Shown piece by piece: positions 48,893 through 64,000 of a DNA stretch of 64,000 bases. The DNA lies in contig NZ_JABEKS010000001.1 in NCBI RefSeq assembly GCF_012985205.1, positions 930,001 to 994,000 on the forward strand, given 5' to 3'. The stretch is from Planctomonas sp. JC2975 (GTDB lineage: Bacteria; Actinomycetota; Actinomycetes; Actinomycetales; Microbacteriaceae). The notes under the pieces are model-generated. The model worked only from the letters and a program-made list of their open reading frames with translations, was not told the origin of the DNA and searched no databases. Position 1 is the stretch's first letter. Every line of letters starts with the position of its first letter. A program made the position numbers and the translations under genes.

Positions 48893-50118
48893 ACGGGCGG
48901 CGGGCATCCGTCCTCCTGGCTTCTCTGGCCACGACCGTCTGCCTTCTCCTGGCCGGATGCACAGCTGTGCCATCGGTCGCTGGCCGCGCCGAGGTCGGCG
49001 CCGAGGTCACGACGCCGCCGATGGGCTGGAACAGCTGGAACCATTTCGGATGCTCGGTCACCGAGGCCGACGTGCGGGCGGCCGCCGACGCCATCGCTGC
49101 GGACGGGCTGCGTGCTGCCGGCTACACGTTCGTCAACGTGGACGACTGCTGGCAGGATCCGACCCGTGACTCGAGCGGACGGCTCCGCGCGAACCGGGAG
49201 CGCTTCCCGCACGGCATAGCCGCCCTCGCCGCCTATGTGCACTCGAAGGGCCTGCACTTCGGTCTCTACGCTGCGCCGGGCCGGCAGACGTGCGCCGAGC
49301 GCTACCAGGGATATCCGGGCAGCGTCGGCAGCTTCGGACACGTCGAGCAAGATGCCAGGATCTTCGCCGCGTGGGGCGTCGACTACCTGAAGTACGACTG
49401 GTGCGCGGCGGATCGCGACGGCGTCGGTCACGAACAGGCTTTCGCGCAGATGCGAGCGGCGCTCGACGCGACGGGCAGGCGGATCGTGTTCAGCATCCAC
49501 GACAAGCCGGAACAGCCAGCGCCGGCCTGGCGGCACTGGGTGGCCGATCTGTCTCGCACCACGCCCGACATCCAGGATTCCTGGTCGTCCGTCGTGTCCA
49601 TCGTGCGCAGCACGCTCGCGAGCGGCACCACGCATGTCTCCGGCTACTGGAACGATCCGGACATGCTCGAGGTGGGCAACAGCGGCATGTCCGATACCGA
49701 GCAGCGCAGCCACTTCGCACTGTGGGCCGAGCTCTCTGCGCCGCTCCTGATGGGCAACGACCTCTCGAAGGCCTCGCGCGCCACGCGCGACATCCTCGGC
49801 AACACGAGAATCATCGCTGTCGACCAGGATGTGCTCGGCGCGCATCCTGTCACGGTCGCGGCTTCCTCCGACCACGCGCTCGTGCTCGCCAAGCCGCTCG
49901 CGGACGGCGGGATCGCGGTGACGATCACCGCGCTGGACGCGACCACGTCCAGCATCTCGGTGTCGAGCCGAGCGCTGGGCTTGGGCGGTGCGTCATCCGG
50001 CGACGATCTGGAGACCGGCGAGCGCGTGACATTCGGGTCGACGATCACCGTCAACCTCGACGGTCACGCCACAGCGATGTACACGCTACTGCCGCACACC
50101 TCTGTCCCGTCTTCTTGA
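48889..50118 (+). CDS. GH27 alpha-galactosidase, lipoprotein
   Basis: A 409-residue glycoside hydrolase. A lipoprotein signal ends in LLLAGC (Cys24). The family start TPPMGWNSWNHFGC, nucleophile Asp in YLKYDWC (near 167) and acid/base Asp in YWNDPDML (near 225) are all intact. A C-terminal beta domain follows. It should remove alpha-galactosyl ends from plant oligo- or polysaccharides at the cell surface. It is translationally coupled to the UPF0014 gene, an unexpected partner. Confidence 0.93.
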   Translation: MNGRRASVLLASLATTVCLLLAGCTAVPSVAGRAEVGAEVTTPPMGWNSWNHFGCSVTEADVRAAADAIAADGLRAAGYTFVNVDDCWQDPTRDSSGRLRANRERFPHGIAALAAYVHSKGLHFGLYAAPGRQTCAERYQGYPGSVGSFGHVEQDARIFAAWGVDYLKYDWCAADRDGVGHEQAFAQMRAALDATGRRIVFSIHDKPEQPAPAWRHWVADLSRTTPDIQDSWSSVVSIVRSTLASGTTHVSGYWNDPDMLEVGNSGMSDTEQRSHFALWAELSAPLLMGNDLSKASRATRDILGNTRIIAVDQDVLGAHPVTVAASSDHALVLAKPLADGGIAVTITALDATTSSISVSSRALGLGGASSGDDLETGERVTFGSTITVNLDGHATAMYTLLPHTSVPSS

Positions 50119-50147
50119 GCGTCCGGCGCCGAGCGGCTCGACCCGGC

Positions 50148-50285
50148 TCAGTCGCTGAGCTCGTCGACGGCGAGTTCGCGGTGAGCGCTGTGCTCGTCGG
50201 CCGAACCGACGACCGCCACGGTGTAGAGCGCGCCGAGCCCCACGGCGGCCACGACGAAACCGACCGTCACCAGCGTCCAGATCAT
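50148..50285 (-). CDS. Small single-span membrane protein (45 aa)
   Basis: MIWTLVTVGFVVAAVGLGAL begins with one membrane segment; the tail is acidic with His residues. GGAAGGGGAG lies directly upstream of the ATG. It is similar in plan to the 49-residue protein at 44622. Function unknown. Confidence 0.55.
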   Translation of the reverse strand: MIWTLVTVGFVVAAVGLGALYTVAVVGSADEHSAHRELAVDELSD

Positions 50286-50424
50286 GTCGCTCCCCTTCCT
50301 CGGATCGTCAGCTTCGCGCGGCTGTTCACAGAAACCGCCCATCTGGGCGACGGCGACGCGGCCGGAGAGCGGATGACGTTCCGCCTCCGCCGGTCCGGTC
50401 ACCGAACGCATAGCCGCCGTCGCG

Positions 50425-50430
50425 TAAGAC
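50425..50430 (+). promoter_or_regulatory. -10 hexamer TAAGAC, leaderless acyltransferase gene
   Basis: TAAGAC, followed by T, ends 6 nt before the GTG at 50437. It lacks the usual final T. Confidence 0.35.
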
Positions 50431-50436
50431 TGGGGT

Positions 50437-51546
50437 GTGGACTCACCGGAAACCGTGAAGCGCCCGACCAGACGGCGCAAGCTCTACGAGTTGGAGGTCG
50501 TGCGCGTCCTCACGTTCGCGTGCGTCATCGGGGTGCACGTGGTGAGCCACACGGCACAGGGCAGCGCGCCGATCGTGGGAAGCCTGATCCTGCTGCACTT
50601 CACCCGCGAGGTGTTCTTCGCACTGACCGGGTTCGTGCTCACCCTCAGCTACCTTCGCAAGCCGAAACCGATGCGCGAATTCTGGCCGCGGCGGTTCCTG
50701 CTCGTCGGTGTTCCCTACCTGGTGTGGTCGCTGATCTACTGCATCATCAGCGCCATCGGCAAGCCGTTCGACCTCTGGCAGTTCCTGCAGCACTACTTCT
50801 GGGCCTCGCTCACCGGCACGGCGTACTACCACATGTATTTCCTGCTGGTCACGATGCAGATCTACCTGTTGTTCCCGCTGCTCGTCTGGCTGGTGAAGGC
50901 CACCCGCCGCTGGCACTGGTTGCTCGTTTCGCTGTCGTTCGCGCTGCAGCTGACCATCAGCGCCTTCGACCAGTACAAGCCGGGGTCGATGCACTGGATC
51001 AACCTGTTCAGCAACGTCATCAACTACCAGGCGTTCATCATCGCGGGAGCCGTCGGCGCGTACCACTCGACCGCCGTGCTGCAGTGGGTTCGGGTGCACC
51101 GCCGTCTCATCGCCGTCATCACGCCGATCGCCGCCGCCCTCACCATCGGGGCGTACCTGCTGCAGCTCTCCTGGGGGTACAGCGTGTACGCGGCGTCCAC
51201 CGCGTACCAGCCGGCCGTTCTCGTGTGGTCGGCCGTGGTCGCCGTGGCGCTTCTCGCGATCGGGGCGTGGTGGGTCGACCGTCGGCCGGAGGATCCGCAC
51301 CGCACCCTCGACTACCTCTCGGACCGTTCGTTCGGCGTCTTCCTGGCGCATCCGCTCGTGCTCTGGCTGCTGCTCCTGGTGGCCGGCGGGCTGCTGAACT
51401 CGTGGCCGCCGTTGGTCTCGACGATCGTGGCGTACCCGATCGTGGCGCTCGGAGCGCTCGGAATCGCGGATGTCGCGCGGCGGAGCATCCTGAGCCTCCC
51501 CTTGGCCGGGCGGCCGCGTTCCACCCGCCGCAAGAACATCCCCTGA
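50437..51546 (+). CDS. Acyltransferase-3 family membrane protein
   Basis: A 369-residue protein with about 10 membrane segments. ELEVVRVLTFACVIGVHVV carries the R-x(n)-H motif of the first helix, and FFALTGFVLTL and FWPRRFLLVGVPYLVWS are family segments. Such enzymes O-acylate sugars or peptidoglycan at the outer membrane face. It probably decorates a surface polymer. The GTG start is leaderless-type. Confidence 0.87.
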   Translation: MDSPETVKRPTRRRKLYELEVVRVLTFACVIGVHVVSHTAQGSAPIVGSLILLHFTREVFFALTGFVLTLSYLRKPKPMREFWPRRFLLVGVPYLVWSLIYCIISAIGKPFDLWQFLQHYFWASLTGTAYYHMYFLLVTMQIYLLFPLLVWLVKATRRWHWLLVSLSFALQLTISAFDQYKPGSMHWINLFSNVINYQAFIIAGAVGAYHSTAVLQWVRVHRRLIAVITPIAAALTIGAYLLQLSWGYSVYAASTAYQPAVLVWSAVVAVALLAIGAWWVDRRPEDPHRTLDYLSDRSFGVFLAHPLVLWLLLLVAGGLLNSWPPLVSTIVAYPIVALGALGIADVARRSILSLPLAGRPRSTRRKNIP

Positions 51547-51696
51547 GGCGGTGGTCGAGCTTCACCCTCGCGGATGCTCGTCTCGGTCGTTCCGCCAACC
51601 TGGCCGCCTGCCTCGAACCCTATGGATCGTCCCCGAGGTCTCTGAGCGGAGCGGATTCTTGCATCTTCCTCATAATCGCGTGAGCAGCATCGAACC

Positions 51697-53139
51697 ATGA
51701 CCACCTTCGGACAGGAGCGGGCGTCGCTGACGCCGGATGCGCCGGTGACGCACGCCTCCTGGACCGCAGCGGACGTCGAGCGCCGGCCGCCGACGGACTG
51801 GTGGCGTCTGGGCGCCGTCGCCGTTGTCTGGCTGACCAGCCTGTTCGTCGTCGCGCTGTGGGTGTCCGGCGGCGGCCTCGAGGATCTCGTGCGGTTCGAC
51901 GCCGACACGCTCAACACCCTCGGACGCATCACGGGTCTCGTCGCCGCGAACCTGCTGCTGTACCAGGTGCTGCTCATGGCGCGAATCCCGCTGTTCGAGC
52001 GCGGATTCGGTCGCGACGGCATGACGCGCATGCACCGCCTCGTCGGCTTCTGGTCGTTCTGGCTGATGCTCGCGCATATCGTGCTCATCACCATCGGATA
52101 CGCGGCGGAGAGCGGTACGAATGTCATCGTGCAGGCCTGGCAGTTCGTCTGGGACTACCCGGGGATGCTCCTCGCCACGGCGGGGACGCTCCTGCTGATC
52201 CTGGTCGTCATCACGTCGATGCGGCGAGCGCGCAAGCGCCTTCGCTACGAGTCGTGGCACCTGCTCCATCTGTACGCGTATGTCGGGGTCGGCCTGTCCA
52301 TTCCGCACATGCTGTGGACGGGCGCCGACTTCCTGACCTCTCTGCCCGCGACCGTGTACTGGTGGGCCCTCTGGGTGGTCTCCGCGGTGAGCCTTGTGAT
52401 GTTCAGGGTGCTCGTGCCCGTCATCCGCTCGCTCAGGCACAGCGTGCGCGTCGCCTCGGTCGAGCCGGACGGCGGCCGCGGCGTCGTCGTGCGCATGCGC
52501 GGTCGCGCGCTGGAGCGGCTCCGAGCCGAGTCCGGACAGTTCTTCCTGTGGCGCTTCCTGGACGGGCCGGGATGGATGCGCGGGCATCCGTTCTCGCTCG
52601 CGGCCGCTCCGCAGGGCGACGAGCTCGTCATCTCCGCCAGGGTGCTCGGTGACGGCACGCAGAGGTTGCTCGGCCTGCGCTCAGGGACGCGCGTGGCGTT
52701 CGAGGGTCCGTTCGGAAGGCTGACGGGCCGCGAGCGCCGCGGCCGCAAGCTGCTCATGATCGGCGCGGGCGCGGGCGTCACGCCGCTCGTCTCGCTGCTG
52801 GAGTCGGAGGAGTATGCCGACGGCGAGGCGGCACTCATCGTGCGGGACCACGAAGCACGCGATGCACTCCGAAGCGAGGCGATCGGCGATCTGGTGCAGA
52901 ACCGGGGTGTGCGCTACGCGAGGCTCGACGGGCATCGCTCGCACGGCGCATCGCCGTGGCTGCCGCAGACACACGCGGAGTGGGCGGGCGATGACCTGAT
53001 CCGCTACGTCGCGCCCGACCTCGAGCTCTACGACGCGTACGTCTGCGGACCCGAGCCGTGGATGGACAGCGTGACCAAGGATCTGCGCGCCGCCGGGCTG
53101 AGCCCATCCCGCATCCACACCGAGCGATTCTCGATCTGA
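51697..53139 (+). CDS. Ferric-reductase-like transmembrane flavocytochrome
   Basis: A 480-residue protein. About six membrane segments hold heme-ligand His pairs (MHRLVGFW / LAHIVL and SWHLLHLYA / SIPHML). The cytoplasmic half is ferredoxin-reductase-like: FAD site RGHPFSLAA, nucleotide site MIGAGAGVTPLVSLL and VCGPEPWM at the end. It should pass electrons from NAD(P)H across the membrane. It is followed by an FMN-binding protein and ApbE, the expected acceptor and its maturation enzyme. Confidence 0.9.
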   Translation: MTTFGQERASLTPDAPVTHASWTAADVERRPPTDWWRLGAVAVVWLTSLFVVALWVSGGGLEDLVRFDADTLNTLGRITGLVAANLLLYQVLLMARIPLFERGFGRDGMTRMHRLVGFWSFWLMLAHIVLITIGYAAESGTNVIVQAWQFVWDYPGMLLATAGTLLLILVVITSMRRARKRLRYESWHLLHLYAYVGVGLSIPHMLWTGADFLTSLPATVYWWALWVVSAVSLVMFRVLVPVIRSLRHSVRVASVEPDGGRGVVVRMRGRALERLRAESGQFFLWRFLDGPGWMRGHPFSLAAAPQGDELVISARVLGDGTQRLLGLRSGTRVAFEGPFGRLTGRERRGRKLLMIGAGAGVTPLVSLLESEEYADGEAALIVRDHEARDALRSEAIGDLVQNRGVRYARLDGHRSHGASPWLPQTHAEWAGDDLIRYVAPDLELYDAYVCGPEPWMDSVTKDLRAAGLSPSRIHTERFSI

Positions 53140-53160
53140 CGACAGCTGCAGAAGGCACCC

Positions 53161-53718
53161 ATGAAGAAGATCATCTACGGACTGCTGGCGACGATCACCG
53201 GCATCGTGCTGCTGTTCAGTTATCGAACGTCGCTCGACGCGGTGAGTCCGACCGCCTCGACTTCCGGCACCGGTGGTGCCACCAATGGAACGGGCTCGAC
53301 CGGATCGTCCAACTCGACCGGATCGGATACGACGGGTTCGGGTTCGTCCTCGGGCTCCAGCTCGAGTGGGTCGTCGTCGACAGGCTCGTCCGCGTCCGCT
53401 TCGCCTTCGGCTTCCGCATCCGCTTCATCCAACGGCCTGAAGGACGGCACGTTCACGGGCGCGTCCGCCGACACGCGTTACGGACCGGTGCAGGTTGCCG
53501 TCACCGTCTCCGGCGGCAAGATCACCAAGGTCGACGTTCCGGTATATCCGACGGAGAGCTTCCGCGACGAGGAGATCAACCGTCAGGCGGTGCCCGAGCT
53601 CGTCTCAGAGACGCTCAACGCTCAGAGCTCGAACATCGACATGGTCTCCGGCGCCACGTTCACCAGCGAGGGATACCTCAAGTCGCTGCAGAGCGCACTC
53701 GACGAGGCGCACGCGTGA
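53161..53718 (+). CDS. Extracytoplasmic FMN-binding-domain protein
   Basis: A 185-residue exported protein. A hydrophobic N-terminal anchor (IIYGLLATITGIVLLFS) and a Ser/Thr/Gly linker of about 70 residues precede an FMN-binding domain. SGATFTSEGY (about 163-172) is the flavinylation motif; the Thr in S-G-A-T is the one ApbE modifies. It likely takes electrons from the upstream flavocytochrome. AGAAGG precedes the ATG; the stop overlaps the apbE start (TGATG). Confidence 0.93.
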   Translation: MKKIIYGLLATITGIVLLFSYRTSLDAVSPTASTSGTGGATNGTGSTGSSNSTGSDTTGSGSSSGSSSSGSSSTGSSASASPSASASASSNGLKDGTFTGASADTRYGPVQVAVTVSGGKITKVDVPVYPTESFRDEEINRQAVPELVSETLNAQSSNIDMVSGATFTSEGYLKSLQSALDEAHA

Positions 53719-54587
53719 TGGAGCCTTCTGGGTCTGATCGCACCGGGCCGGATAGATCGGTGCGGGATCGCGCAAGGCTCGTCCGCACGGCGCCCATCAT
53801 GGGAACCGTTGCGAGCATCCACGTTCTCGGGGACGCAGGAGGCGGCCCGGTCGACGAGCGCGAGGTGCAGCCGGCGATCGATGCCTGCTTCCAGGAGCTC
53901 GCCGACCTCGAGCGGATCTTCTCTCCATTCCGCGCCGACTCCGACATCTCCCGGATTCGTGCCGGCGTCCTCGCTCCGGCCGATGCGGATTGCCGTGTGG
54001 CGGTCGTCCGCGGCGAATGCGAGGAGGCGAAGCGTCTCACGCACGGCCTCTTCGACGCCTGGCATCAGGGTTGGTTCGACCCGACCGGATACGTCAAAGG
54101 CTGGGCGACCGAGACGGCCGCCCGCCACCGTCTCGAGCCGCTGCTGGAGATGGACGGCGTGGATGCGGTGGGCATCGGTGTGGGCGGCGACGTGCAGCTC
54201 TTCACTGCTCAGGGATCCGACTGGCGCTGGCACGTCGGCATCGCGGATCCGGCCGCTCCCGGCAGCGTCGCCGCCACGATCGAGGTTCGCACCGGCGCGG
54301 TGGCGACCTCGGGCATCGCTGAACGCGGATCCCACATCATCGATCCGCGGACCGGATCCCCGGCGACCACGGTCGCCAGCGCGACCGTCGTGGCCGACGG
54401 CCTCGCCACCGCGGACCTCTGGGCGACGACCGCGGTGATCGCCGGCTTCGACGACCTCTCGTGGACCGGTGCCGAGGGTGTGAGATCCGGAATCCTCATC
54501 TCACCCTCGGGCGAGATCAGGCGCTGGGCGGGCAGCATCGAGCTCGCCCGTTGGCAGGACCCGGCTCTCACCCGGCCGTCGCGTTGA
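53718..54587 (+). CDS. apbE: ApbE-family FAD:protein FMN transferase
   Basis: A 289-residue enzyme that attaches FMN covalently to Thr of FMN-binding domains. APIMGTVASI begins the domain; GYVKGWATE, GIGVGGDVQL, GSVAATI-type strand and the metal/active segment SGIAERGSHIIDPRTG are present. No clear signal peptide is seen, so it probably acts inside before export of its target. It shares a base with the upstream stop codon. Its 3' end overlaps the convergent VIT1-like gene by 20 nt. Confidence 0.93.
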   Translation: MEPSGSDRTGPDRSVRDRARLVRTAPIMGTVASIHVLGDAGGGPVDEREVQPAIDACFQELADLERIFSPFRADSDISRIRAGVLAPADADCRVAVVRGECEEAKRLTHGLFDAWHQGWFDPTGYVKGWATETAARHRLEPLLEMDGVDAVGIGVGGDVQLFTAQGSDWRWHVGIADPAAPGSVAATIEVRTGAVATSGIAERGSHIIDPRTGSPATTVASATVVADGLATADLWATTAVIAGFDDLSWTGAEGVRSGILISPSGEIRRWAGSIELARWQDPALTRPSR

Positions 54588-55296
54588 ACAGACGACCGAT
54601 CAGGAATGTCGCGGCGAGCGCGATCGCGCCGCCGATCACGACGCGCAGCGCGGCTTTGCCGCGGGAGCTTCCGCCGATGGCCGCCGCGACGTAGCCGGTC
54701 ACGGCGAGCGCCACGATCACGGCCACGAAGGTCACGGGCACTCGCCACGCAGACGGCAGCAGGATGGTCAGCATCGGAAGAGCGCCGCCGATGAGGAACG
54801 ACAGCGCCGACGCGAGCGCGGCGTGCCACGGGCTCACGACGTCGTCGGGATCGATGTCCAGCTCGGCGGAGAGGTGTGCCCGCAGCGCGTCGTGGGCGGT
54901 GAGCTCTTCTGCCACCTTGTAGGCGGTCGCCTCAGAGAGGCCCTTCGCCCGGTAGAGCCCGGCGAGCTCCTCGAACTCCTCCTCCGGCATGGTGGCGAGC
55001 TCTTCGGTCTCCTTCGCGATGAGTGCCCGCTCGCTGTCGCGCTGACTGCTCACGGAGACGTACTCCCCGAGCGCCATCGACACCGCGCCGCCGACCAGGG
55101 CGGCCAGCCCTGCGACGACGATCGCGTCAACACTCGACGTCGCTCCCGCGACGCCGACCACGATGGCCGCCACCGAGACGATGCCGTCGTTGGCGCCCAG
55201 AACTCCGGCGCGCAGCCAGTTCAGGCGCTGCGCGAGTCCCGCACGATGCGGCTCATCCGGATGCTGGCCCGGCGCGGGCTCCGATTCCTCAGACAT
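54568..55296 (-). CDS. VIT1/CCC1-family metal transporter
   Basis: A 242-residue membrane protein of the vacuolar iron transporter family. LRAGVLGANDGIVSVAAI (near 28) and SMALGEYVSVSSQ (near 75) are family-specific. A cytoplasmic charged loop (about 85-145) rich in Glu may bind metal, and three membrane segments follow. It likely exports Fe2+ or Mn2+ from the cytoplasm. It overlaps the apbE end from the opposite strand. Confidence 0.9.
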   Translation of the reverse strand: MSEESEPAPGQHPDEPHRAGLAQRLNWLRAGVLGANDGIVSVAAIVVGVAGATSSVDAIVVAGLAALVGGAVSMALGEYVSVSSQRDSERALIAKETEELATMPEEEFEELAGLYRAKGLSEATAYKVAEELTAHDALRAHLSAELDIDPDDVVSPWHAALASALSFLIGGALPMLTILLPSAWRVPVTFVAVIVALAVTGYVAAAIGGSSRGKAALRVVIGGAIALAATFLIGRLFNATAG

Positions 55297-55370
55297 ACCA
55301 GAAGCACACCACACGAGCCCCTGGCGGTCGAGGAAGGTGAGGCGTCCCTCAGCCGGCGGCGCGGCAACGG

Positions 55371-55748
55371 TCAGAGCACCGAGCCGAGCCAGAGGCCGCC
55401 GAATCCGACGGCGACCGTTGCGACGAGCACGAGGATGCCGTTGCTGAAGGCCATCACCCACTCGCGTTCCTGAATCAGCCGCACCGTCTCGATGCTCGCC
55501 GTGCTGAACGTCGTGTAGCCGCCCATCAGGCCAGTGCCGAGCACAAGCACCCATTGCGGCGTCAGCAGCGCGCTCGCAGCGAGTCCGGTGAGGAACCCGA
55601 GGATGAACGAGCCGGACACGTTGATCACGGCGGTCCCCCAGGGGAACGGTGAGCGCACCCGCGAGCGCACCAGCCCGTCCACCACGAACCTCATCGCTGC
55701 GCCGACTCCGCCGGCGAGGCAGAGCGCGACGAAGACTCCCGGACTCAC
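55371..55748 (-). CDS. crcB: CrcB/Fluc fluoride channel subunit 2
   Basis: A 125-residue four-span membrane protein. The fluoride-path residues AVINVSGSF (Asn near 42) and GLMGGYTTFST (near 73) are conserved. Two different crcB genes in tandem normally form a heterodimeric fluoride channel. The GTG start overlaps the stop of the first crcB gene (GTGA). Confidence 0.95.
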   Translation of the reverse strand: MSPGVFVALCLAGGVGAAMRFVVDGLVRSRVRSPFPWGTAVINVSGSFILGFLTGLAASALLTPQWVLVLGTGLMGGYTTFSTASIETVRLIQEREWVMAFSNGILVLVATVAVGFGGLWLGSVL

Positions 55749-56359
55749 CCGTCCCGCCTTCCCGCACCAGGCTTCGGCCCGGAGCTCCTCAGCTTGGCCG
55801 CACGCGTCAGCCGGGCACCGACCAGGATGCCCGCGACGGATGCCGCGGCGCCGGCCACCACACTCGCCAGGCCGTACCCGATGCCCACCAGCTCCTGGCC
55901 GCTGCCGAAGGTCACGGCGATCCCGACGGCCAGGGTGCTGTAGGTCGTGTAGCCGCCCATGAAGCCGGTGCCTACCAGCAGTCGCAGGGCGCGGCGTCGA
56001 CCTTCGTCCGGTCCGAGTCGCAGCAGGAACTCCAGCACGACGCCGAGGGCGAAGGCACCGGTGAGGTTGATCATGAAGATCGCGGTCGGGAAAGCGCCCG
56101 CCGCCGGGATGACGAGGCTCAGCGCCTCGCGGGTTCCCGTGCCGATCGCCCCGCCGAGCGCGACCAGACCGACGAACCGCCACGTGAGGTGCACAGGACG
56201 CGGACGCGCGGGAGGGCGGGCATCGGCGACCTCGATGTCGCTGTCGACGGGGAGCGACTCGAATGCGGCGCGCGAACCGGCGTGCTGCACCTCGGCGGCG
56301 GCTTCCGCTGATCCGGGCGGCGTGCGGGGCGCGTCCTGGTCGGGGGACGTGCTGGGCAT
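55745..56359 (-). CDS. crcB: CrcB/Fluc fluoride channel subunit 1
   Basis: A 204-residue version with the usual four membrane spans after a 60-residue acidic N-terminal extension not typical of the family. FMINLTGAF (Asn) and GFMGGYTTYST are conserved. It exports fluoride together with the second subunit. A fluoride riboswitch covers its leader. Confidence 0.95.
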   Translation of the reverse strand: MPSTSPDQDAPRTPPGSAEAAAEVQHAGSRAAFESLPVDSDIEVADARPPARPRPVHLTWRFVGLVALGGAIGTGTREALSLVIPAAGAFPTAIFMINLTGAFALGVVLEFLLRLGPDEGRRRALRLLVGTGFMGGYTTYSTLAVGIAVTFGSGQELVGIGYGLASVVAGAAASVAGILVGARLTRAAKLRSSGPKPGAGRRDG

Positions 56360-56385
56360 GGTTCACCTACCTTGCTCTCGATGAG

Positions 56386-56467
56386 TGCGGTAGGAGTCAT
56401 CAGCCGTCGTGGCGGTTCGGGCGCGGCCTTCACGTGCGCCGTCCCGGGTGGATACCCCATCACCCAG
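56386..56467 (-). promoter_or_regulatory. Fluoride riboswitch (crcB motif)
   Basis: On the minus strand the leader reads GGGTGATGGGGTATCCACCC, then AACCGCC and GGCTGATGACTCCTAC, in the order of the crcB RNA. The first stem, the pseudoknot strand and the conserved TGATG-CTCCTA end are all visible. It sits 27 nt before the crcB start and should switch on the exporter when fluoride is bound. Confidence 0.92.
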
Positions 56468-56530
56468 GGTTAGAGGATACCGGGGCCCTCGCATCCTGGG
56501 CAAAGTCGGAGCATCCTGGTGGAGGGGGCG

Positions 56531-57049
56531 ATGACGATGTCGGACACCGGCGAGCACGGGAACTGCCTGGTCGTCGGAGTCGCCCCGTCGCAGGCAGCCG
56601 AGGTGATCCACGAGGCCGCACGGTTCGCCAGCATGCTCGGCGCCTCCCTCGTGCTCGCCGCTGTTGACCCCACCAGATACACGACCGGACGCAACCAGGA
56701 CGGGACGGTCACCGCGTTCTCCGTCGATCCTGATGCGAGCGACGTCATCACGGAGCACGTCGATCCTGAACTCGAGGAGCGGCTGCGCTCGATGCTGGCT
56801 CCGACCCGCGTGCCGTGGTCGCTGCGCGCGATGGCCGGCGATCCGGCTCAGGAACTCGCGCTGCTGGCCGACGAGCTCGATGCGATCGCGATCGTCGTCG
56901 GCACACGCAAGCCGGGGCTGCGCACCACGGCGCACGAGTTCTTCAGCGGCTCCGTCGCCGTGCACCTCGCCCATCGCCAACGCCGACCGGTGATCGTCGT
57001 TCCGATCGCGCCCGTCTCGCACGGTCAGCGCCTGCCGTGGGAGATCTGA
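56531..57049 (+). CDS. Universal stress protein family protein
   Basis: A 172-residue single-domain UspA-like protein. The N-terminal strand CLVVGVAPSQAA and the C-terminal GTRKPGLRTTAHEFFSGSVA to VIVVPIAP match the family's nucleotide-binding ends, although the G-x2-G-x9-G(S/T) pattern is imperfect. The ATG at 56531 follows GGAGGGGG; a GTG at 56519 is less likely. Probable role is stress survival. A 9-bp hairpin at 57059-57082 may terminate it. Confidence 0.85.
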   Translation: MTMSDTGEHGNCLVVGVAPSQAAEVIHEAARFASMLGASLVLAAVDPTRYTTGRNQDGTVTAFSVDPDASDVITEHVDPELEERLRSMLAPTRVPWSLRAMAGDPAQELALLADELDAIAIVVGTRKPGLRTTAHEFFSGSVAVHLAHRQRRPVIVVPIAPVSHGQRLPWEI

Positions 57050-57058
57050 GTCTCACGT

Positions 57059-57082
57059 GGGACGTCTGACCGGAGACGTTCC
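57059..57082 (+). terminator. Candidate terminator of the stress-protein gene
   Basis: A 9-bp stem (57059-57067 with 57074-57082, one G-T pair), 6-nt loop, 10 nt past the stop. Confidence 0.45.
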
Positions 57083-57147
57083 GTCCCTCTCGCTGCGTAC
57101 TGTTACGGCCGACTCACCCCTCACGGCAGCGGCCGACAGCGGTGCGC

Positions 57148-57153
57148 TACCGT
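57148..57153 (+). promoter_or_regulatory. -10 hexamer TACCGT, leaderless cytochrome-b-like gene
   Basis: TACCGT ends 7 nt before ATG 57161 and supports it over a GTG at 57152. Confidence 0.5.
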
Positions 57154-57160
57154 GAAGCCG

Positions 57161-58108
57161 ATGTCGATTCAGGAGCAGGCCGCCACTCCCCCGGCGAGCA
57201 GGTGGCGTCCGTTGGCGTGGATCGTCCCCGTCGTGGTGGTCGGAGCCGCGATCATTGTGCTCGTCACCCGCTGGTTCATCGCGCTCCCCGCGGTCGCGGA
57301 CTTCATCCGCACGTACCCGGGCACCAGCGCGCTCCCGGTATGGGCGCCCGTCGGTTTCCCCCTGTGGCTCGCGATCCTGCACTTCCTGAGCGGTGCCTTC
57401 CTCTTCTTCATCGTGTTCTCCGGCTGGTCCGTTCGGCGCACCAGGCGAGGAGGCGTTCGGCCGCGAGAGTTCTGGATCCGGGACAACGACCGTCTCGTGC
57501 GCACGAAGAATCCGCCGGTGCGGATCACCCTCACCTCGTGGTGGCATCTCACCCTCGACGCACTCTGGGTGCTCACCGGAGTTCTCTTCGTGGTGCTCCT
57601 GTTCAGCACGGGCCAGTGGGTGCGGATCGTCCCCACCAGCTGGGACGTGATTCCGAATGCCGTCTCGGCGGCTCTGCAGTACGCGTCGTTGGACTGGCCC
57701 GTCACCAACGGCTGGGTCGACTACAACGCGCTGCAACTCCTGACCTACTTCGCCACCGTGTTCCTCGCGGCTCCGCTCGCGGTCCTCACGGGCATCCGCC
57801 TCGCACCAGGGCTGTCAGTGCGGCTGCGCAGGTTCGACAAGGCGTTCCCGCTGCCGAGAGTGCGGGTCGTTCACTACGTCGTGATGATCTGGTTCGTCGC
57901 CTTCACCATCGTGCACGTGGCGCTCGTGCTGCTCACCGGTCCGCTGCGCAACCTCAACCACATGTACGGGCTGAGGGATGACTCCAGCTGGGTCGGGCTC
58001 ATCGTGTGGGTCGCCTCGCTCGTCGTCATCGCGATCGCCGCGGCGCTCCTGCGGCCGCCGCGCCTCGATGCCCTGGCCGAGCTCACCGGCAGCGTCAAGC
58101 GCCGCTGA
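57161..58108 (+). CDS. Cytochrome b561 / formate-dehydrogenase-gamma-like membrane protein
   Basis: A 315-residue protein with five or six membrane segments. His residues in ILHFLSG, SWWHLTLDALW and VVHYVVMIWF / IVHVALVL are spaced like the b-heme ligands of membrane cytochrome b subunits. It probably carries electrons between the quinone pool and a periplasmic-side oxidoreductase, but no molybdopterin partner is adjacent. The start follows the TACCGT hexamer. Confidence 0.75.
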   Translation: MSIQEQAATPPASRWRPLAWIVPVVVVGAAIIVLVTRWFIALPAVADFIRTYPGTSALPVWAPVGFPLWLAILHFLSGAFLFFIVFSGWSVRRTRRGGVRPREFWIRDNDRLVRTKNPPVRITLTSWWHLTLDALWVLTGVLFVVLLFSTGQWVRIVPTSWDVIPNAVSAALQYASLDWPVTNGWVDYNALQLLTYFATVFLAAPLAVLTGIRLAPGLSVRLRRFDKAFPLPRVRVVHYVVMIWFVAFTIVHVALVLLTGPLRNLNHMYGLRDDSSWVGLIVWVASLVVIAIAAALLRPPRLDALAELTGSVKRR

Positions 58109-58146
58109 GCATCTTCGGGCTGAACGTCCTCGGGCTCGCGCTTCTT

Positions 58147-58152
58147 TAGGCT
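58147..58152 (+). promoter_or_regulatory. -10 hexamer TAGGCT, leaderless SAHH-like operon
   Basis: TAGGCT ends 6 nt before GTG 58159, the first codon of the three-gene operon. Confidence 0.6.
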
Positions 58153-58158
58153 TGAGGG

Positions 58159-59736
58159 GTGTCCGCCGACCTCGCCTTCGCACGCATCGCGTTGCGCCGT
58201 TTCGCGCGCGCGACGAATCTGCTCGTGCCAGGGCGATCGTTCACCGTGCTCGGCGACGAGGGACGAGCGGATGCTCTCCGCGGGCTCCTGAGATCGTGCG
58301 GCGGCCGGGAGTCGGTCGCCTCGCCCGACTACCTGTTCGCCACGACGGAGACGTCGTGGCAGCGCGCGGCGGGGTTCGGGTCTCCGATCGTCGTCGACGT
58401 GGCGGGATCGCTGACCGCGGAGATCTCCGGCCGCGCCGCCCCTTCCACCAGGGACGGCATCCTCCGTCTCGACGGGATCGACGTCGTGCCCGCGTTCCCG
58501 TCGCTTCCCGCCCAGGCTCCGCTCCCGGCGGCACCCGGCCGGATCGCCTGGGCGGGCGCACACATGCCGCTCACCGCGTCCTTCGCGGCGGATCTGAAGC
58601 GCGACGAGCTGCTCAACGGGCGGCGGATCGCGGTCTCCATGGTGCTGGAGCCGAAGACGGCCGTCCTGGCGCTCGCGCTGCGCGACGCCGGCGCCGACGT
58701 GCACGTCTTCTCGCATCGCTACGAGACGGACGAACCCGTTGCCGCCCACCTGGGTGAACTGGGCATCCCGGTGTTCGCGGATGCGCGCGGTGACGCCGCA
58801 ACGGACCGCACCCTCGCACTTCGACTGCTCGACACGGATCCCGACGTGCTCATCGACGACGGCGCGCACGTCATCCGGCTCGCGCACAAGGCCCGGCCGG
58901 AACTCGTCACCCGCATGATCGGTGCAGCGGAGGAGACGACCAGCGGGGTGCGCGCGATCCGCGCGCTCGGCGACGGACTCCGCATGCCCGTCGTCGCGGT
59001 GAACGACGCCGTCACCAAGACCCGCTTCGACAACCGTTACGGAACAGGGCAGTCCTGCGTGTTCGCGCTCGCCGACACCCTCGAATCCGTTGCGGGTCTC
59101 GTTCCTGCGACGGACTCGTTCGACGACGCCGTGGTGGCGGTGCTCGGCTTCGGACCCGTCGGGCAGGGCGTCGCGCAATTCGCGAGGGCGCTGGGCGCAC
59201 GGGTGCGTGTGGCCGACGTGGACCCCCGCGCGGAACTCGAGGCTCGGTACGCGGGATATTCGACGGGTGCGGCAGCGGAGATCCTGCCCGGCGCCGACAT
59301 CGTCTTCTCCGCGACGGGGGTCGCCCGCACGATCACGGCCGAGCTCGTGCGGCTGCTGGACGAGGCCGTCCTGGCCGTCGCCGGAGGCGTGGATGACGAG
59401 ATCGAGGTGGACCGCCTTCGCCGGTCGGCGCACACGGCGCGAGCCGGGGATCACGTCGAGACCTTCACGTTCGACGACGGGCGCGTCGTGACCGTCGTCG
59501 ACGATGGCGAGTGCGTGAACATCACGGCAGGCGAAGGCAACCCGATCGAGATCATGGATCTTTCGTTCGCCGCGCAGTTGCAGGCGCTGCGCACACTGCT
59601 CACGGGCCGTGACCTGCCGCCGGAGCTGATGCCGCTCCCGGTCGAAGCCGACCGCGAGATCGCGCGGCGTGCCCTGCCGCACCGGCGCGCCGGTCAGCTG
59701 CCCGCCGGTCCGTGCGGTGAAGGAGCGGCCTCGTGA
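58159..59736 (+). CDS. Divergent S-adenosylhomocysteine-hydrolase-like protein
   Basis: A 525-residue protein. After about 130 residues of unknown domain it follows the SAHH plan: WAGAHMPLTASF, DDGAHV, EETTSGV, AVNDAVTKTRFDNRYG, the NAD loop VLGFGPVGQGVAQ and VNITAGEGNPIEIMDLSFA. The substrate His-x-Thr of canonical enzymes is replaced (SMVLEPKTAV), the base/ligand His of the NIGHFDVEID segment is replaced (VAGGVDDEIEVD), and the C-terminal KPxHYRY tail is missing. So it should bind NAD but act on another substrate. It is coupled (GTGA) to a deaminase-like gene. Confidence 0.85.
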   Translation: MSADLAFARIALRRFARATNLLVPGRSFTVLGDEGRADALRGLLRSCGGRESVASPDYLFATTETSWQRAAGFGSPIVVDVAGSLTAEISGRAAPSTRDGILRLDGIDVVPAFPSLPAQAPLPAAPGRIAWAGAHMPLTASFAADLKRDELLNGRRIAVSMVLEPKTAVLALALRDAGADVHVFSHRYETDEPVAAHLGELGIPVFADARGDAATDRTLALRLLDTDPDVLIDDGAHVIRLAHKARPELVTRMIGAAEETTSGVRAIRALGDGLRMPVVAVNDAVTKTRFDNRYGTGQSCVFALADTLESVAGLVPATDSFDDAVVAVLGFGPVGQGVAQFARALGARVRVADVDPRAELEARYAGYSTGAAAEILPGADIVFSATGVARTITAELVRLLDEAVLAVAGGVDDEIEVDRLRRSAHTARAGDHVETFTFDDGRVVTVVDDGECVNITAGEGNPIEIMDLSFAAQLQALRTLLTGRDLPPELMPLPVEADREIARRALPHRRAGQLPAGPCGEGAAS

Positions 59737-61070
59737 GCAGCATCCACGTCTTCTCGGCATCCCTGGTGCTGCCGGTGACCGCCCCGCCCATCCTGGACGG
59801 CGCGATTGCGGTGCGCGACGGGCGCATCCTGCACGTCGGCGATCGACCATGGGTGCTCGGCGCACTGAGGGAACGCGGCGAGGAGTTCCGCGAGACGCAC
59901 GCGGACGGCATCCTCGCGCCCGGCCTGGTCAATGCGCACACCCACCTGCAGTACACCGGCATGGCCGACGTCGGCCAGGGCAGGTATCGCGGCTTCGAGG
60001 ACTGGGCCCGCGCATTCGACGCGCTCTACGAGCATCCGCACGACTGGCGGGCGGATGCTGTGGCCGGCGCGGGCCGCCTCCTCGCCTCCGGCGTCACCGC
60101 CGCCGCCGACGTGGTCACCGACCTCGAAGCCGCCGCCGTGCTCCACGACACTGGCCTGCACGGCATCGCGTACTGGGAGGTGATGAGCTGGGAGGACCAG
60201 CAGTGGCGCGACTACGGACGCGACCAGGTGCAGGCCGAGCTCGACCGGATCCCCACGACGCCTGGATCCGGACTCTCGCCGCACGCACCGTACTCGCTCG
60301 ACACCGTTCCGCTGCACGAGATCCCCGACATCGTTCGCGAGCGCGGGCTGCGACTGCACATCCATCTCGGGGAATCGCAGTTCGAGGGCGAGCGGATCGC
60401 CGACGACGACGGTGAGCGTCACGAGAACTGGCGCTTCGCCGGCGTGCAGAGCTTCCGTGCCCTCCGCGAGCTCGGGTTCGGCACGAGTGCGACCGAGTTC
60501 GTCGACCAGCTCGGCGTGCTCGGGCCGGACTGCCATATCGCGCACGGCGTTTACATGACCGAACAGGATCGCCGCCTCCTGCGCCTGCGCGGTACGAGCG
60601 TCGCTCTGTGCCCTCGGTCGAACGACGTCATCGGGCTGGAGCCGCCACCCGTCGCCGACTACCTCGCCGAGGGCAACGCCATCGCCGTCGGAACGGACTC
60701 GCTCTCGTCGAGTCCTTCGCTCGATCTCATGGCCGACGTCGCCGCGTTGCACCGGCTGGCCAGGGCGCAGGGCTACCGTGGCGACGACCTGCACGCCCGG
60801 CTGCTGGGTGCGGCGACGTTGGGCGGTGCCCGCGCGCTCGGCCTCGACGTCGGCCCCCGCCGCCTCGGACAGTTCGGCGTCGGCGCCGTGGCCGACCTCG
60901 CGTTCTTCGACGTGCCCGTCACGACCGTTCCGGATGCCACGGCCGAGCTCATCGAGGCCGGCACCGGGCGTTGCGCGGCCACCTACGTCGACGGACGCCA
61001 TCGATGGTCCAGGCCGGAGCTGCACGAGGCGCCCGCCGATGAGGATTCCGACGAAGTGAGGCGACGATGA
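59733..61070 (+). CDS. Amidohydrolase, SAH/MTA-deaminase-like (TRZ/ATZ family)
   Basis: A 445-residue metal-dependent hydrolase. The metal ligands are NAHTHLQ (His-x-His near 68), HIHLGESQ (His and Glu near 209), IAHGVY (His near 271) and GTDSLSSSPS (Asp near 324). HLGE with GTDSLSS is the deaminase form that acts on adenosyl or guanine-type rings (MtaD, aminodeoxyfutalosine deaminase, guanine deaminase). Beside an SAHH-like protein, deamination of an adenosyl thioether is plausible. GTG start overlaps the upstream stop. Confidence 0.88.
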   Translation: MSSIHVFSASLVLPVTAPPILDGAIAVRDGRILHVGDRPWVLGALRERGEEFRETHADGILAPGLVNAHTHLQYTGMADVGQGRYRGFEDWARAFDALYEHPHDWRADAVAGAGRLLASGVTAAADVVTDLEAAAVLHDTGLHGIAYWEVMSWEDQQWRDYGRDQVQAELDRIPTTPGSGLSPHAPYSLDTVPLHEIPDIVRERGLRLHIHLGESQFEGERIADDDGERHENWRFAGVQSFRALRELGFGTSATEFVDQLGVLGPDCHIAHGVYMTEQDRRLLRLRGTSVALCPRSNDVIGLEPPPVADYLAEGNAIAVGTDSLSSSPSLDLMADVAALHRLARAQGYRGDDLHARLLGAATLGGARALGLDVGPRRLGQFGVGAVADLAFFDVPVTTVPDATAELIEAGTGRCAATYVDGRHRWSRPELHEAPADEDSDEVRRR

Positions 61071-61537
61071 GCAGTTCCGACGTTCAGAGGTCCGTATCCG
61101 AAGACCGGATCCGGCCGGCACTCGCGGAGCGGCTCGACCTCGAGCGGCACCCCGAGGGCGGATGGTTCCGCCGCACCTGGACATCGCCCGTCTCGGTCGA
61201 GCTGCCGAGAGGCGAGCGGGCTGCGGCATCCCTCATCCACTACCTGCTCGAGGACGGCGAGTCGTCGGCGTGGCACGTTGTGCAGTCCGACGAGATCTGG
61301 CTCTGGCACGGGCCGGGCAGGCTCGGCCTCCGGCTCGGCGGAACCGGTGATGCGCCGGTCGAAGGCACGACCTCGATGCTCGGCCCCGACATCCTCGCCG
61401 GCGACCGGGCGCAGGCCGTCGTCCCGGCCGGGGTGTGGCAGCGAACGCTGCCCGCGGCGGGCGAGACTCTCGTCAGCTGCCTGGTCTCGCCCGAGTTCAG
61501 CTTCGACGACTGGAAGCTGAGTTCGACCGCTGGTTGA
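61067..61537 (+). CDS. DUF985 cupin-family protein
   Basis: A 156-residue small cupin. LDLERHPEGGWFRRTW, LIHYLLEDGESSAWHVVQSDEIW and VVPAGVWQRT are the segments of the Cupin_5/DUF985 family, a beta-barrel with a possible metal or sugar-nucleotide site (His in AWHVV, Glu in SDEIW). Function unknown. ATGA overlap with the amidohydrolase makes it the third member of the operon. Confidence 0.9.
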   Translation: MSSSDVQRSVSEDRIRPALAERLDLERHPEGGWFRRTWTSPVSVELPRGERAAASLIHYLLEDGESSAWHVVQSDEIWLWHGPGRLGLRLGGTGDAPVEGTTSMLGPDILAGDRAQAVVPAGVWQRTLPAAGETLVSCLVSPEFSFDDWKLSSTAG

Positions 61538-61642
61538 GTCGGTCGGAACGAACCCGCGCACCCCGGCCTCCGTCGGCCCGGCTTCACCCGGCGTAACCGA
61601 TTCCCGGTCTCCCAGGTGACTCTCGTAAAATCGCCGTGCATC

Positions 61643-61675
61643 AGAGAGGAGCGCGACAGCACGCGGCCCCTCTCT
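61643..61675 (+). promoter_or_regulatory. Hairpin in leader of the amino-acid importer, attenuator-like
   Basis: AGAGAGG (61643-61649) pairs with 61669-61675, followed by TCTCCTTTTCC. A TAAAAT hexamer lies just upstream at 61626-61631. A GTG-initiated short frame overlaps it. It might be a transcriptional attenuator; this is weak. Confidence 0.3.
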
Positions 61676-61699
61676 TCTCCTTTTCCCGGAAGGCCACCC

Positions 61700-62548
61700 G
61701 TGTCCCGCACCCCTCGTTCCCCGCGCGCTCCGCGCCGCATCGTCCTCGGCGCGGTCGTCGCCGCGGCAGCGCTCGTCGCACTGAGCGCCTGCAGCTCGGC
61801 CACCACCACGACCACGCACGGCCTGGAAACCATCACTGCGGGCAAGCTCACGGTCGCGACCGGCCAGCCCGCGTACTCCCCGTGGGTCATCGACAACAAG
61901 CCGCAGTCGGGTCAAGGCTTCGAATCGGCGGTCGCGTACGCGGTGGCGAAGAAGCTCGGCTTCTCGAAGGACGAGGTCACCTGGACGCGCACCGGTTTCG
62001 ATCAGGCGGTCGCCCCTGGCCCGAAGGACTTCGACTTCAACCTGCAGCAGTTCAGCATCACCGACCAGCGCAAGAAGGCCGTTGACTTCTCCTCGCCGTA
62101 CTACACGACGACGCAGGCGGTCGTTGCGTACAAGGGCACCCCGGTGGCGTCAGCGACCAGCGCCGCCGACCTCAAGCCGTACAAGATCGGCGTGCCTGCC
62201 GGAACCACCAGCTACGACGTGCTCATCAAGGAGGTTGGCGGATCACCCGCCGTGTTCAACTCCGAAGATGACGCCGTTCAGGCGCTCAAGAGCAAGCAGA
62301 TCGACGCGATCGCCGTCGACCTGCCTGCCGCGTTCTACATCACGAGCGCCCAGCTGAAGAACGCCACGATCGTCGGACAGTTCTCCGACACCGACGGCGG
62401 TGACGACTACGGCCTCGTGCTGGCGAAGAACTCGCCGATCACGAAGAAGGTCACCGCCGCGGTCGACGCGCTGCGCGAGGACGGCACCCTGGCCGCGCTC
62501 GAAAAGAAGTGGCTGTCCGACTCCGTGAACGTGCCCACGTTCAAGTAG
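61700..62548 (+). CDS. Amino-acid ABC importer substrate-binding lipoprotein
   Basis: A 282-residue exported binding protein of the polar-amino-acid family (SBP_bac_3). The lipoprotein signal ends in VALSAC (Cys about 32). TAGKLTVATGQPAYSPW starts the domain and GFDQAVAPGPKDFDFNLQQFSIT and FSSPYYTTTQAVVAYK are typical. It captures the amino acid for the permease and ATPase that follow. The GTG has GGAAGG 6 nt upstream, so the longer upstream frame is rejected. Confidence 0.92.
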   Translation: MSRTPRSPRAPRRIVLGAVVAAAALVALSACSSATTTTTHGLETITAGKLTVATGQPAYSPWVIDNKPQSGQGFESAVAYAVAKKLGFSKDEVTWTRTGFDQAVAPGPKDFDFNLQQFSITDQRKKAVDFSSPYYTTTQAVVAYKGTPVASATSAADLKPYKIGVPAGTTSYDVLIKEVGGSPAVFNSEDDAVQALKSKQIDAIAVDLPAAFYITSAQLKNATIVGQFSDTDGGDDYGLVLAKNSPITKKVTAAVDALREDGTLAALEKKWLSDSVNVPTFK

Positions 62549-62565
62549 GCGATACCGTCCCAGCT

Positions 62566-63501
62566 GTGCCTGCTTCGCCATCTGCACCCGATCCATCGAC
62601 GATGAATCCCACGTCGGTGTCCGATGCGACCCTCGGCGGGGACGGATCGGCCACGGTCGCGCATGCGCCGAGCGCCGTCGCGCTCGACCGCTCGAGGTTC
62701 CGCAAACGGCAGTCGACCCGATCCGTGGTCATCGCCCTGGTGAGCACCGTGGCGTTCGCGGTCGTCGTCTGGTTCGCCGTGGTCAACACGCCCGGCTGGG
62801 CGCTCGTGCAACAGTCCTTCTTCGATCCGAAGACGGCGTGGCAGGCGCTGCCGAGCGTGTTGCTGGGTCTGTGGACGAACATCCAGGTGCTGTTCTTCGC
62901 CGCGATCGGCGTGGCGATCTTCGCAACGCTGCTCGCTGCCATCCGCTCGCTGCGTGCGCCGGTCTGGTTCCCACTCCGGTTCCTCGCAACGGCGTACACC
63001 GACCTGTTCCGTGGGCTTCCGGTCCTCATCGTGCTGTACCTCGTGGGATTCGGGATCCCTGCGCTTGGGGTGTTCCCGCGAGTGCCGGCGGAGGTGTGGG
63101 GCACGATCGCGCTGGTGCTGTGCTACTCCGCGTATGTGGCAGAGGTGCTCCGCGCAGGCATGGAGGCAGTGCATCCGTCTCAGCGCTTCGCGGCGCGCTC
63201 GCTCGGGCTCACGCACACGCAGACGCTGCGGCTCGTGGTGTTCCCGCAGGGCATCCGCAAGGTGACGCCTGCGCTCATGAACGACTTCGTGTCGATGCAG
63301 AAGGACGTAGGCCTCATCTCCGTACTGGGCGCCGTGGATGCCGTGCGCGCGGCGCAGATCAACGTCGCCGAGACCTACAACTTCACCGCGTACGTCGTGG
63401 CAGGCCTTCTCTTCGTGTTGATCAGCTGGCCCATGATCCGTCTCACGGACTGGTACACGGCACGAGCGCAGAGGCGCGAGCAGACGGGCGGTGTGGTGTG
63501 A
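62566..63501 (+). CDS. Amino-acid ABC importer permease
   Basis: A 311-residue permease. A 45-residue polar N-terminus precedes about five or six membrane segments. The HisM/GlnP motif segments WTNIQVLFFAAIG, FRGLPVLIVLYL and the EAA loop EVLRAGMEAVHPSQRFAARS are clear. GTG 62566 is taken as the start, but ATG 62602 is equally possible; neither has a good ribosome site. GTGA overlap with the ATPase gene. Confidence 0.9.
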   Translation: MPASPSAPDPSTMNPTSVSDATLGGDGSATVAHAPSAVALDRSRFRKRQSTRSVVIALVSTVAFAVVVWFAVVNTPGWALVQQSFFDPKTAWQALPSVLLGLWTNIQVLFFAAIGVAIFATLLAAIRSLRAPVWFPLRFLATAYTDLFRGLPVLIVLYLVGFGIPALGVFPRVPAEVWGTIALVLCYSAYVAEVLRAGMEAVHPSQRFAARSLGLTHTQTLRLVVFPQGIRKVTPALMNDFVSMQKDVGLISVLGAVDAVRAAQINVAETYNFTAYVVAGLLFVLISWPMIRLTDWYTARAQRREQTGGVV

Positions 63502-64000
63502 GCGAGCGGATGACGACTCCCTCAGCGAGCTTCGCGGACGACGCATCCGCTGCCTCGGTGCTCAGCATGCGTCGCGTGTACAAGGCGTTCGGTGAGAACG
63601 TCGTGCTGCGCGGCATCGACCTCGACGTGAACAGGCACGAGGTGGTGGTGCTCATCGGTGCGAGCGGATCCGGCAAATCCACGCTGCTGAAGACCGCGAA
63701 CCTCCTGGAGCAGATCGACGACGGCCAGATCTTCCTGCACGGTGAGGACATCAGCGATCCACGTGTCGACGTGGACAAGACGCGCGCGCGCATCGGCGTC
63801 GTCTTCCAGCAGTTCAACCTCTTTCCGCATCTCACCGTTCTCGACAACGTGACCCTGGCGAATCGCAAGGTGCACAAGATGGCGAAGGACCAGGCGGAGC
63901 AGGTCGCCGTCGAGCTCCTCGGTCGCATCGGTCTCGGCGACAAGCTCAAGGCCTATCCTGACCGGCTCTCCGGTGGGCAGCAGCAGCGGGTCGCCATCGT
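63498..64000 (+). CDS. Amino-acid ABC importer ATPase (3' end missing)
   Basis: The first 167 codons of a GlnQ-type ATPase. Walker [11 protein letters not shown]-loop VFQQFNLFPHLTV and signature LSGGQQQR are present; the window ends just before Walker B. A 20-residue N-terminal extension precedes the ATPase. It completes the importer with the binding protein and permease. Confidence 0.93.
   Translation, partial: MSERMTTPSASFADDASAASVLSMRRVYKAFGENVVLRGIDLDVNRHEVVVLIGASGSGKSTLLKTANLLEQIDDGQIFLHGEDISDPRVDVDKTRARIGVVFQQFNLFPHLTVLDNVTLANRKVHKMAKDQAEQVAVELLGRIGLGDKLKAYPDRLSGGQQQRVAI

Follow-up and report, generated by a model that had tools for sequence, protein, structure and literature searches.

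A conserved locus in Planctomonas sp. JC2975 that may take up and salvage S-adenosyl amino acids, with a SAH-hydrolase-like protein lacking the usual catalytic and gate histidines

Three overlapping genes of Planctomonas sp. JC2975 raise the question of what a protein resembling S-adenosylhomocysteine (SAH) hydrolase (SAHH) does beside a deaminase-like amidohydrolase and a cupin. They lie in a stretch of 64,000 nucleotides (positions 930,001 to 994,000 of contig NZ_JABEKS010000001.1, hereafter the window) of a 4.36-Mb genome. Whether this genome also has a normal SAHH had been raised by an earlier, sequence-only reading; an ordinary AhcY is indeed encoded on another contig (G000:C2:241226, 587.6 bits, over the cut-off). 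We slightly favor the view that the locus serves the uptake and salvage of an amino-acid-bearing adenosine thioether, with SAH or a closely related S-adenosyl amino acid as the likeliest candidate. The features considered are the following.

58147..58152, + strand: -10-like box TAGGCT of the leaderless type, 6 nt ahead of the SAHHL GTG
58159..59736, + strand: SAHHL, SAH-hydrolase-like protein without the catalytic and gate histidines (525 aa, GTG start; from the open reading frame [ORF] call and Pfam)
58531..59733, + strand: SAHH-like body of SAHHL, substrate and cofactor domains (from motif residues and conservation)
58159..58530, + strand: N-terminal extension of SAHHL, about residues 1-124, a putative degenerate second SAHH cofactor (Rossmann) domain containing TNLLVPGRSFTVLG
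59733..61070, + strand: AMID, COG0402 amidohydrolase, predicted nucleoside (5'-thioether adenosine) deaminase (445 aa, GTG start)
61067..61537, + strand: CUP, DUF985/Cupin_5 protein, an optional member (156 aa, ATG start)
61700..62548, + strand: SBP, family-3 polar amino acid substrate-binding lipoprotein (longest ORF begins at 61616)
62602..63501, + strand: PERM, polar amino acid ATP-binding cassette (ABC) permease (longest ORF begins at 62509)
63510..64000, + strand: ATP, ABC ATPase of the same importer, extending beyond the window to ~64289 (9011-9790 in L074)

SAHHL matches the Pfam families AdoHcyase_NAD and AdoHcyase, AMID matches Amidohydro_1 and CUP matches Cupin_5/DUF985. We have used an alignment of 13 SAHHLs to search 84,980 species, each represented by one genome; 284 stretches matched, 267 of them encode relatives, and the best 80 loci were kept. 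In these, gene calling found AMID 80 times, SAHHL 79 times (it was missed in L151) and CUP 71 times, so that the trio is conserved, with CUP as a usual but optional member. By record title, the hosts include Microbacteriaceae genera, Demequina, Actinomyces, Schaalia, Acidipropionibacterium, Mycobacterium/Mycolicibacterium, one Rhizobiales record, one Pseudomonadales record and others, the closest SAHHLs within the named collection being those of two Humibacter records and one Actinomycetales metagenome-assembled genome. The operon proposed in the sequence-only reading was confirmed by the ORF coordinates, with 4-nt overlaps between SAHHL and AMID and between AMID and CUP; the first overlap is exactly 4 nt in 67/79 loci, and in two genomes of one genus (L055 and L056) SAHHL and AMID are fused in a single open frame. 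The leaderless-type promoter also held. A TAnnnT sequence stands at the place of the -10 box upstream of 55 of the 79 called SAHHL starts, against 1.6 expected by shuffling (64/99 when repeats of the same loci are included), in counts whose rows share ancestry and include some wrongly called starts. The unit is larger than the trio, however. It comprises at least six genes, the trio being the front half of a conserved locus in which an overlooked ABC importer follows (61700-64289); polar-amino-acid ABC genes are part of 71/80 loci.

SAHHL and AMID are nearly always found together. Among 150 genomes of the family, SAHHL orthologues (>200 bits) occur in 26 and AMID orthologues (E 1e-40 or better) in 26, with 25 shared (Fisher p 3e-26, relatedness ignored), and 25 of the 27 genomes with either gene have both. 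The genome with SAHHL only, G024, carries a decayed SAHHL-like ORF (L059) with D for the motif E and other motifs altered, and no AMID match was found in the 19.5 kb taken around it. The genome with AMID only, G093, is described below. Among 346 genomes of the phylum, AMID matches above 400 bits were found only in Planctomonas itself (G000) and in G395, where SAHHL stands beside AMID; in a separate search of the phylum, the 86/346 genomes matched at E 1e-55 or better include ordinary SAHHs and are not a SAHHL count.

We have then examined which SAHH residues are kept in 94 distinct SAHHLs (L058-L060 and L151 set aside; L058 and L060 show the family motif state, whereas L059 is the decayed ORF). 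In the window protein the motifs are VLEPK at 162-166, K287, D291, N292, GxGxxG at 330-335, GGV at 409-411 and GNP at 460-462. The oxidation residues K287, D291, N292, N282 and E259, the pair D233/D234 and the GxGxxG loop are invariant (94/94), which agrees with the NAD loop having been described as kept. E164 and K166 of the HxExK motif are equally invariant. The His of this motif is never present, its column holding V 68 times (as in the window), F 18 times, T 7 times and I once. At the gate position (GHF) G occurs 93 times and M once, and the GHP histidine is replaced by N in all 94. The reported loss of the gate (NIGHFDVEID) His was therefore borne out, as was that of the substrate His; the accompanying loss of Thr was not a loss, because Glu is normal in the HxExK subgroup. 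HxExK enzymes are reported to prefer S-inosylhomocysteine (SIH) and HxTxE(Q) enzymes to prefer SAH, the Lys of HxExK contacting O6 of inosine (PMC10978960). With E164/K166 invariant, this preference suggests that SAHHL is built for a hypoxanthine nucleoside. In the lupin SAHH, a Lys is reported to be the base for the 3'-OH, an Asp to take the C4' proton and H62 to protonate the leaving homocysteine (PMC13406329); this proton-donor His was mapped onto the SAHHL column by motif. From its residues, then, SAHHL looks fitted to a hypoxanthine nucleoside, with the oxidation machinery kept and the usual acid and gate gone.

SAHHL cannot be counted as an ordinary SAHH. The SAHHLs form a single clade with 100/100 support in a tree of 47 rows, apart from all SAHHs sampled, and constitute a monophyletic sister family of SAH hydrolases. 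SAHHL scores 259.4 bits against TIGR00936 (the AhcY equivalog), below the cut-off of 497.6, and 79.7 bits against PF00670. It passes the NF004005 equivalog (315 vs. a cut-off of 275), whose label is adenosylhomocysteinase, so that routine annotation probably overstates it. The AlphaFold2 model (predicted local distance difference test [pLDDT] 92.0, predicted template modeling score [pTM] 0.91) has the SAHH fold with two Rossmann domains. Overlaid on SAHHs, as the sequence-only reading had proposed, it fits best to 7r3a_A (Z 41.5, root-mean-square deviation 2.0, 385 residues aligned); 3x2f ranked first in Foldseek, the Foldseek and VIA lists covering mainly residues 123-525. The absence of the C-terminal tail, formerly taken as degeneration, is no sign of decay, since a short C-terminus is usual in archaeal-type SAHHs.

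Two other groups of SAHH relatives were seen in the searches. In another actinobacterial family (L176-L180, L182 and L183), an SAHH has independently lost the same two histidines (LP[IV]EAKTA, NAGGVDVE); these proteins, from family-f18 genomes, were considered as SAHHLs and rejected, as the tree puts them among SIH-type SAHHs. In L176-L179 this histidine-less SAHH adjoins an energy-coupling factor (ECF) importer, and the S component of L177 matches QueT. A second SAHH-like family, in L061-L072 (mostly ~9200-10700), has ~391 aa, HLEPKTA in most members and GEN or NEN instead of FDN; most have a neighbor that we take to be IclR-like, and in many an adenosine deaminase, a thymidine phosphorylase and phosphotransferase system IIA/IIB domains lie near.

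AMID has the residues of a metal-dependent deaminase. H71, H211, E214, H271 and D322 are invariant in 24 sequences and H69 is kept in at least 90%; the HxH, H, E, H and D residues presumably have the catalytic roles known from COG0402 enzymes. The protein matches PF01979 with 112.6 bits, and its model (pLDDT 89.8) has 4f0r, 3lnp, 4dzh and 4gbd as top folds, three of which are titled adenosine deaminase or homologue, at 21-25% identity; 4gbd holds methylthio-coformycin. We thus predict AMID to be a COG0402 deaminase of the adenosine/methylthioadenosine (MTA)-type fold, probably a separate subfamily. In G093, AMID stands without SAHHL beside MetQ-, MetN- and MetI-like genes, which score below NCBIfam cut-offs, and an NtaA/DmoA-family FMN monooxygenase (463.2 bits vs. 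a cut-off of 279.7; L193 7872-13228), with an adenosine deaminase further along the locus. DmoA oxidizes dimethyl sulfide.

The importer is of the polar-amino-acid type in 71 of the best 80 loci, ECF in 3 and CUT1 sugar-type in 2, none being seen in 4 (L103, L114, L116 and L125). Among 84 distinct SBPs the amino-acid Arg is kept in 84 and the Asp in 82, and Gln and Trp at two more positions in all 84; we take the Arg to be the carboxylate-binding and the Asp the amine-binding residue of amino-acid SBPs. An importer in the locus suggests an outside source of the substrate. Moreover, AhcY is over its cut-off in 16/25 SAHHL genomes and LuxS is present in 6 of the remaining 9 (counts here and for MTAN leave out G024). 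With one or the other in 22/25, SAHHL is probably not a housekeeping enzyme and probably serves something other than housekeeping SAH removal. Together with the SBP Arg/Asp and the methionine-type neighbors in G093, this points to a sulfur amino-acid nucleoside as the substrate.

The ~130 residues said to be added in front of SAHHL are present (about 124), and their origin can be assigned by homology to the SAHH cofactor domain. Residues ~1-124 contain TNLLVPGRSFTVLG, which resembles the start of that domain, and this part of the model has a pLDDT mostly of 92-97. A profile of 60 extensions matched SAHHs with 96% probability (E 4.6e-9, hhalign), and the form of the extension encoded as a separate gene did so with 97.7% probability (E 2.4e-12). 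As a control, both profiles were run against 64 families of proteins encoded in the loci, 128 comparisons in all. The two SAHH families alone exceeded 25% probability, the best other reaching 22%, and chance Rossmann similarity was rejected as the source of the match. TIGR00936 also matches two separate-gene forms at model positions 189-270 (E 3e-5 and 5e-4).

The arrangement of the loci suggests a history of domain reduction. In L053, L153, L155 and L175 a complete SIH-type SAHH, with all three histidines kept (HLEAKTA, NAGHH, GHP), lies directly before SAHHL; five ECF-type loci (L045, L049, L127, L145 and L147) have a gene of 184-263 aa in its place; and in loci with the polar-amino-acid importer the domain is fused to the SAHHL N-terminus. 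The extension would thus be what is left of the cofactor domain of another SAH hydrolase, which in other loci is encoded either in full, in tandem with SAHHL, or by a small gene of its own. Against SAHHL bodies the fused extension reached 6% probability and the separate-gene form 95%, which favors, without proving it, the partner SAHH over SAHHL itself as the ancestor. In L175 the complete tandem pair occurs together with the polar-amino-acid importer, so the change of importer and the loss of the domain probably happened separately. GxGxxG is absent from the window extension; some separate genes keep a GxG loop, and loss of nucleotide binding is hence claimed for the window domain only. We infer a structural role for the fused domain, which is probably a remnant of the partner SAH hydrolase and may fill the partner's place in the oligomer core.

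How could these proteins work together? The ABC importer would bring the compound into the cell, and AMID would deaminate the adenine to hypoxanthine, converting SAH to SIH. SAHHL would then hold the hypoxanthine through E164/K166 while its bound NAD oxidizes the 3'-OH (K287, N292, N282 and E259). D233/D234 would take the C4' proton, the 5' thiol would leave by beta-elimination, and water addition and reduction would give inosine and homocysteine. Without the proton-donor His, the thiol may leave unaided, H237 may substitute, or the true leaving group may need no acid. Position 237, in the DDG loop, is His in 81/94 SAHHLs, the ECF, CUT1 and G395 forms and four others lacking it; that H237 might replace the lost acid is speculation. 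A two-step route that deaminates first had been suggested from the sequence. The Thr to Glu change and the short C-terminus are no degeneration, and the suggestion itself gained support from the invariant E164/K166, the mostly adenosine/MTA-type folds nearest to AMID, the near-perfect co-occurrence, the SAHHL-AMID fusion and the methionine-type importer beside AMID in G093, which lacks SAHHL.

Several observations weigh against this salvage route. The homocysteine-protonating His and the gate His are absent in all 94 SAHHLs, so ordinary SAH hydrolysis is not assured, and the complete SIH-type SAHH that accompanies SAHHL in four loci raises the question of what SAHHL contributes there. Importer types vary (polar amino acid, ECF, CUT1 sugar and MetNIQ), only two of them pointing to an amino-acid part; the ECF and CUT1 importers lack any amino-acid signature, and in the distant SBP of G395 the Asp is replaced by Ala. 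None of the 23 NCBIfam hits of AMID reaches its cut-off, with scores far below (NF012037, the SAH/MTA deaminase equivalog, 43.1 bits vs. 779), so the substrate class of AMID rests on fold and context. MTAN is over its cut-off in 5/25 SAHHL genomes and in only 3 of the 6 with LuxS (G045, G087 and G116), where alone the LuxS route looks complete; in the other LuxS genomes it may be incomplete. Nothing in L045, L053, L060, L127, L147, L153 or L155 reached an Rfam gathering score, and hence no SAM or SAH riboswitch was found in these seven loci. Finally, the route does not explain the cupin, which could, as a guess, handle keto-sugar by-products.

Among the alternatives, one keeps the route and changes the leaving group to a sulfonium (S-adenosylmethionine [SAM] to S-inosylmethionine) or a sulfoxide, which would need no acid; SAHHL, acting after deamination, would then be a new kind of 3'-oxidation/elimination enzyme that releases methionine or a sulfenate. 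This would account for the loss of the proton-donor and gate histidines beside invariant oxidation and C4'-proton residues, and also for the amino-acid-like SBP; we regard it as unlikely, since no sequence feature points to a sulfonium, a thiolate could also be eliminated without acid, and SAM is unstable outside cells. Rather less likely is a substrate without an amino acid, such as MTA, 5'-deoxyadenosine or another 5'-modified adenosine, which AMID would deaminate and SAHHL oxidize or cleave. The methylthio-coformycin in 4gbd fits such a substrate, and 5'-deoxyadenosine deaminase and aminofutalosine deaminase are among the NCBIfam hits of AMID, all below cut-off; set against this are the amino-acid Arg/Asp of the SBP, the MetNIQ-type importer in G093 and the absence of a 5' leaving group in 5'-deoxyadenosine.

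SAHHL could also have a binding or regulatory role of the kind AHCYL1 plays for AHCY, with catalysis in AMID and a separate SAHH. The lost histidines and the pairing with a complete SIH-type SAHH in four loci would suit this role, which we nonetheless consider improbable, given that the oxidation residues and the NAD loop are invariant and that most loci show no complete partner beside SAHHL. That the cell relies on the locus to dispose of its own SAH, as a housekeeping route, seems very improbable. Three genomes of 25 (G005, G047 and G082) do show neither AhcY over the cut-off nor LuxS, and MTAN is infrequent, but the other 22 have one of them and the importer belongs to the locus; a housekeeping replacement of AhcY was rejected on this count. 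Returning to salvage of a deaminated S-adenosyl amino acid, we propose, tentatively and with less than even confidence, that SAHHL represents a new enzyme within the SAHH superfamily, one that still oxidizes the 3' position and abstracts the C4' proton but releases the thiol without the help of an acid. Its substrate would be a deaminated S-adenosyl amino acid from outside (SIH, S-inosylmethionine or an oxidized form). In this view SAHHL arose from a tandem SAHH pair in which the other partner has been reduced to a cofactor-domain scaffold, encoded separately where the importer is ECF and joined to the SAHHL N-terminus where it is of the polar-amino-acid type.

Of known systems, the route of Methanocaldococcus jannaschii with DadD and an SIH hydrolase comes closest; it shares a deaminase, an SAHH-family protein with ExK and deamination as the first step (PMC10978960). 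Only the locus studied here has an importer, an SAHH that lacks both the motif and the gate histidine, an additional cofactor domain and a cupin, with AhcY or LuxS encoded separately in 22/25 genomes. DadD is presumably a COG0402 protein, and we take the M. jannaschii genes to be MJ1541/MJ1388. Archaeal-type SAHHs (Thermotoga maritima 5tov, Methanococcus maripaludis 7r3a and Pyrococcus furiosus 7r37) resemble SAHHL in fold (Z 38-42, 384-392 residues), short C-terminus, NAD loop, K/D/N/E oxidation set and ExK. They differ from it in that SAHHL has replaced the HxExK His, the His-Phe gate and the GHP His and has an N-terminal domain, with 33-35% identity in the structural alignments. AHCYL1 and AHCYL2 are SAHH-like partners of AHCY. 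Like them, SAHHL resembles SAHH, is extended at its N-terminus and in some genomes has a catalytic paralogue beside it; unlike them, it keeps the oxidation residues, its extension derives from an SAHH and its operon context is catabolic. AMID has the fold and metal-site residues of MTA/adenosine-type COG0402 deaminases (4f0r, 4dzh and 4gbd), but 23-26% identity to them and scores below all NCBIfam cut-offs shown. CUP matches PF06172 (DUF985) with 131.1 bits (cut-off 25) over nearly its full length, which is its likeness to the DUF985 cupins 1znp, 1yud and 3loi; their PDB titles say only hypothetical or uncharacterized, whereas CUP is linked to nucleoside thioether genes.

Elsewhere in the window, among positions 50000-64000, the only Rfam match at gathering score was a fluoride riboswitch (56384-56473, - strand, 40.7 bits vs. 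a gathering score of 34), upstream of other genes, namely the minus-strand ORFs at ~55371-56366, which we take to be crcB-like.

SAH is a methylation waste product released by many cells. Our searches of open-access full text found no description of a bacterial uptake-and-use route for SAH, nor of the importer, the histidine-free SAHH, the scaffold domain or the Actinomycetota spread of such a route. If our reading is true, the locus would let bacteria feed on secreted S-adenosyl compounds, and it would add Actinomycetota and some Proteobacteria to the range of the deaminate-first route known from archaea. SAHHL would offer a natural SAHH without the acid and gate histidines, in which the roles of these residues can be tested outside mutants, and the locus would illustrate the erosion of one partner in a pair of enzymes until only a scaffold domain is left.

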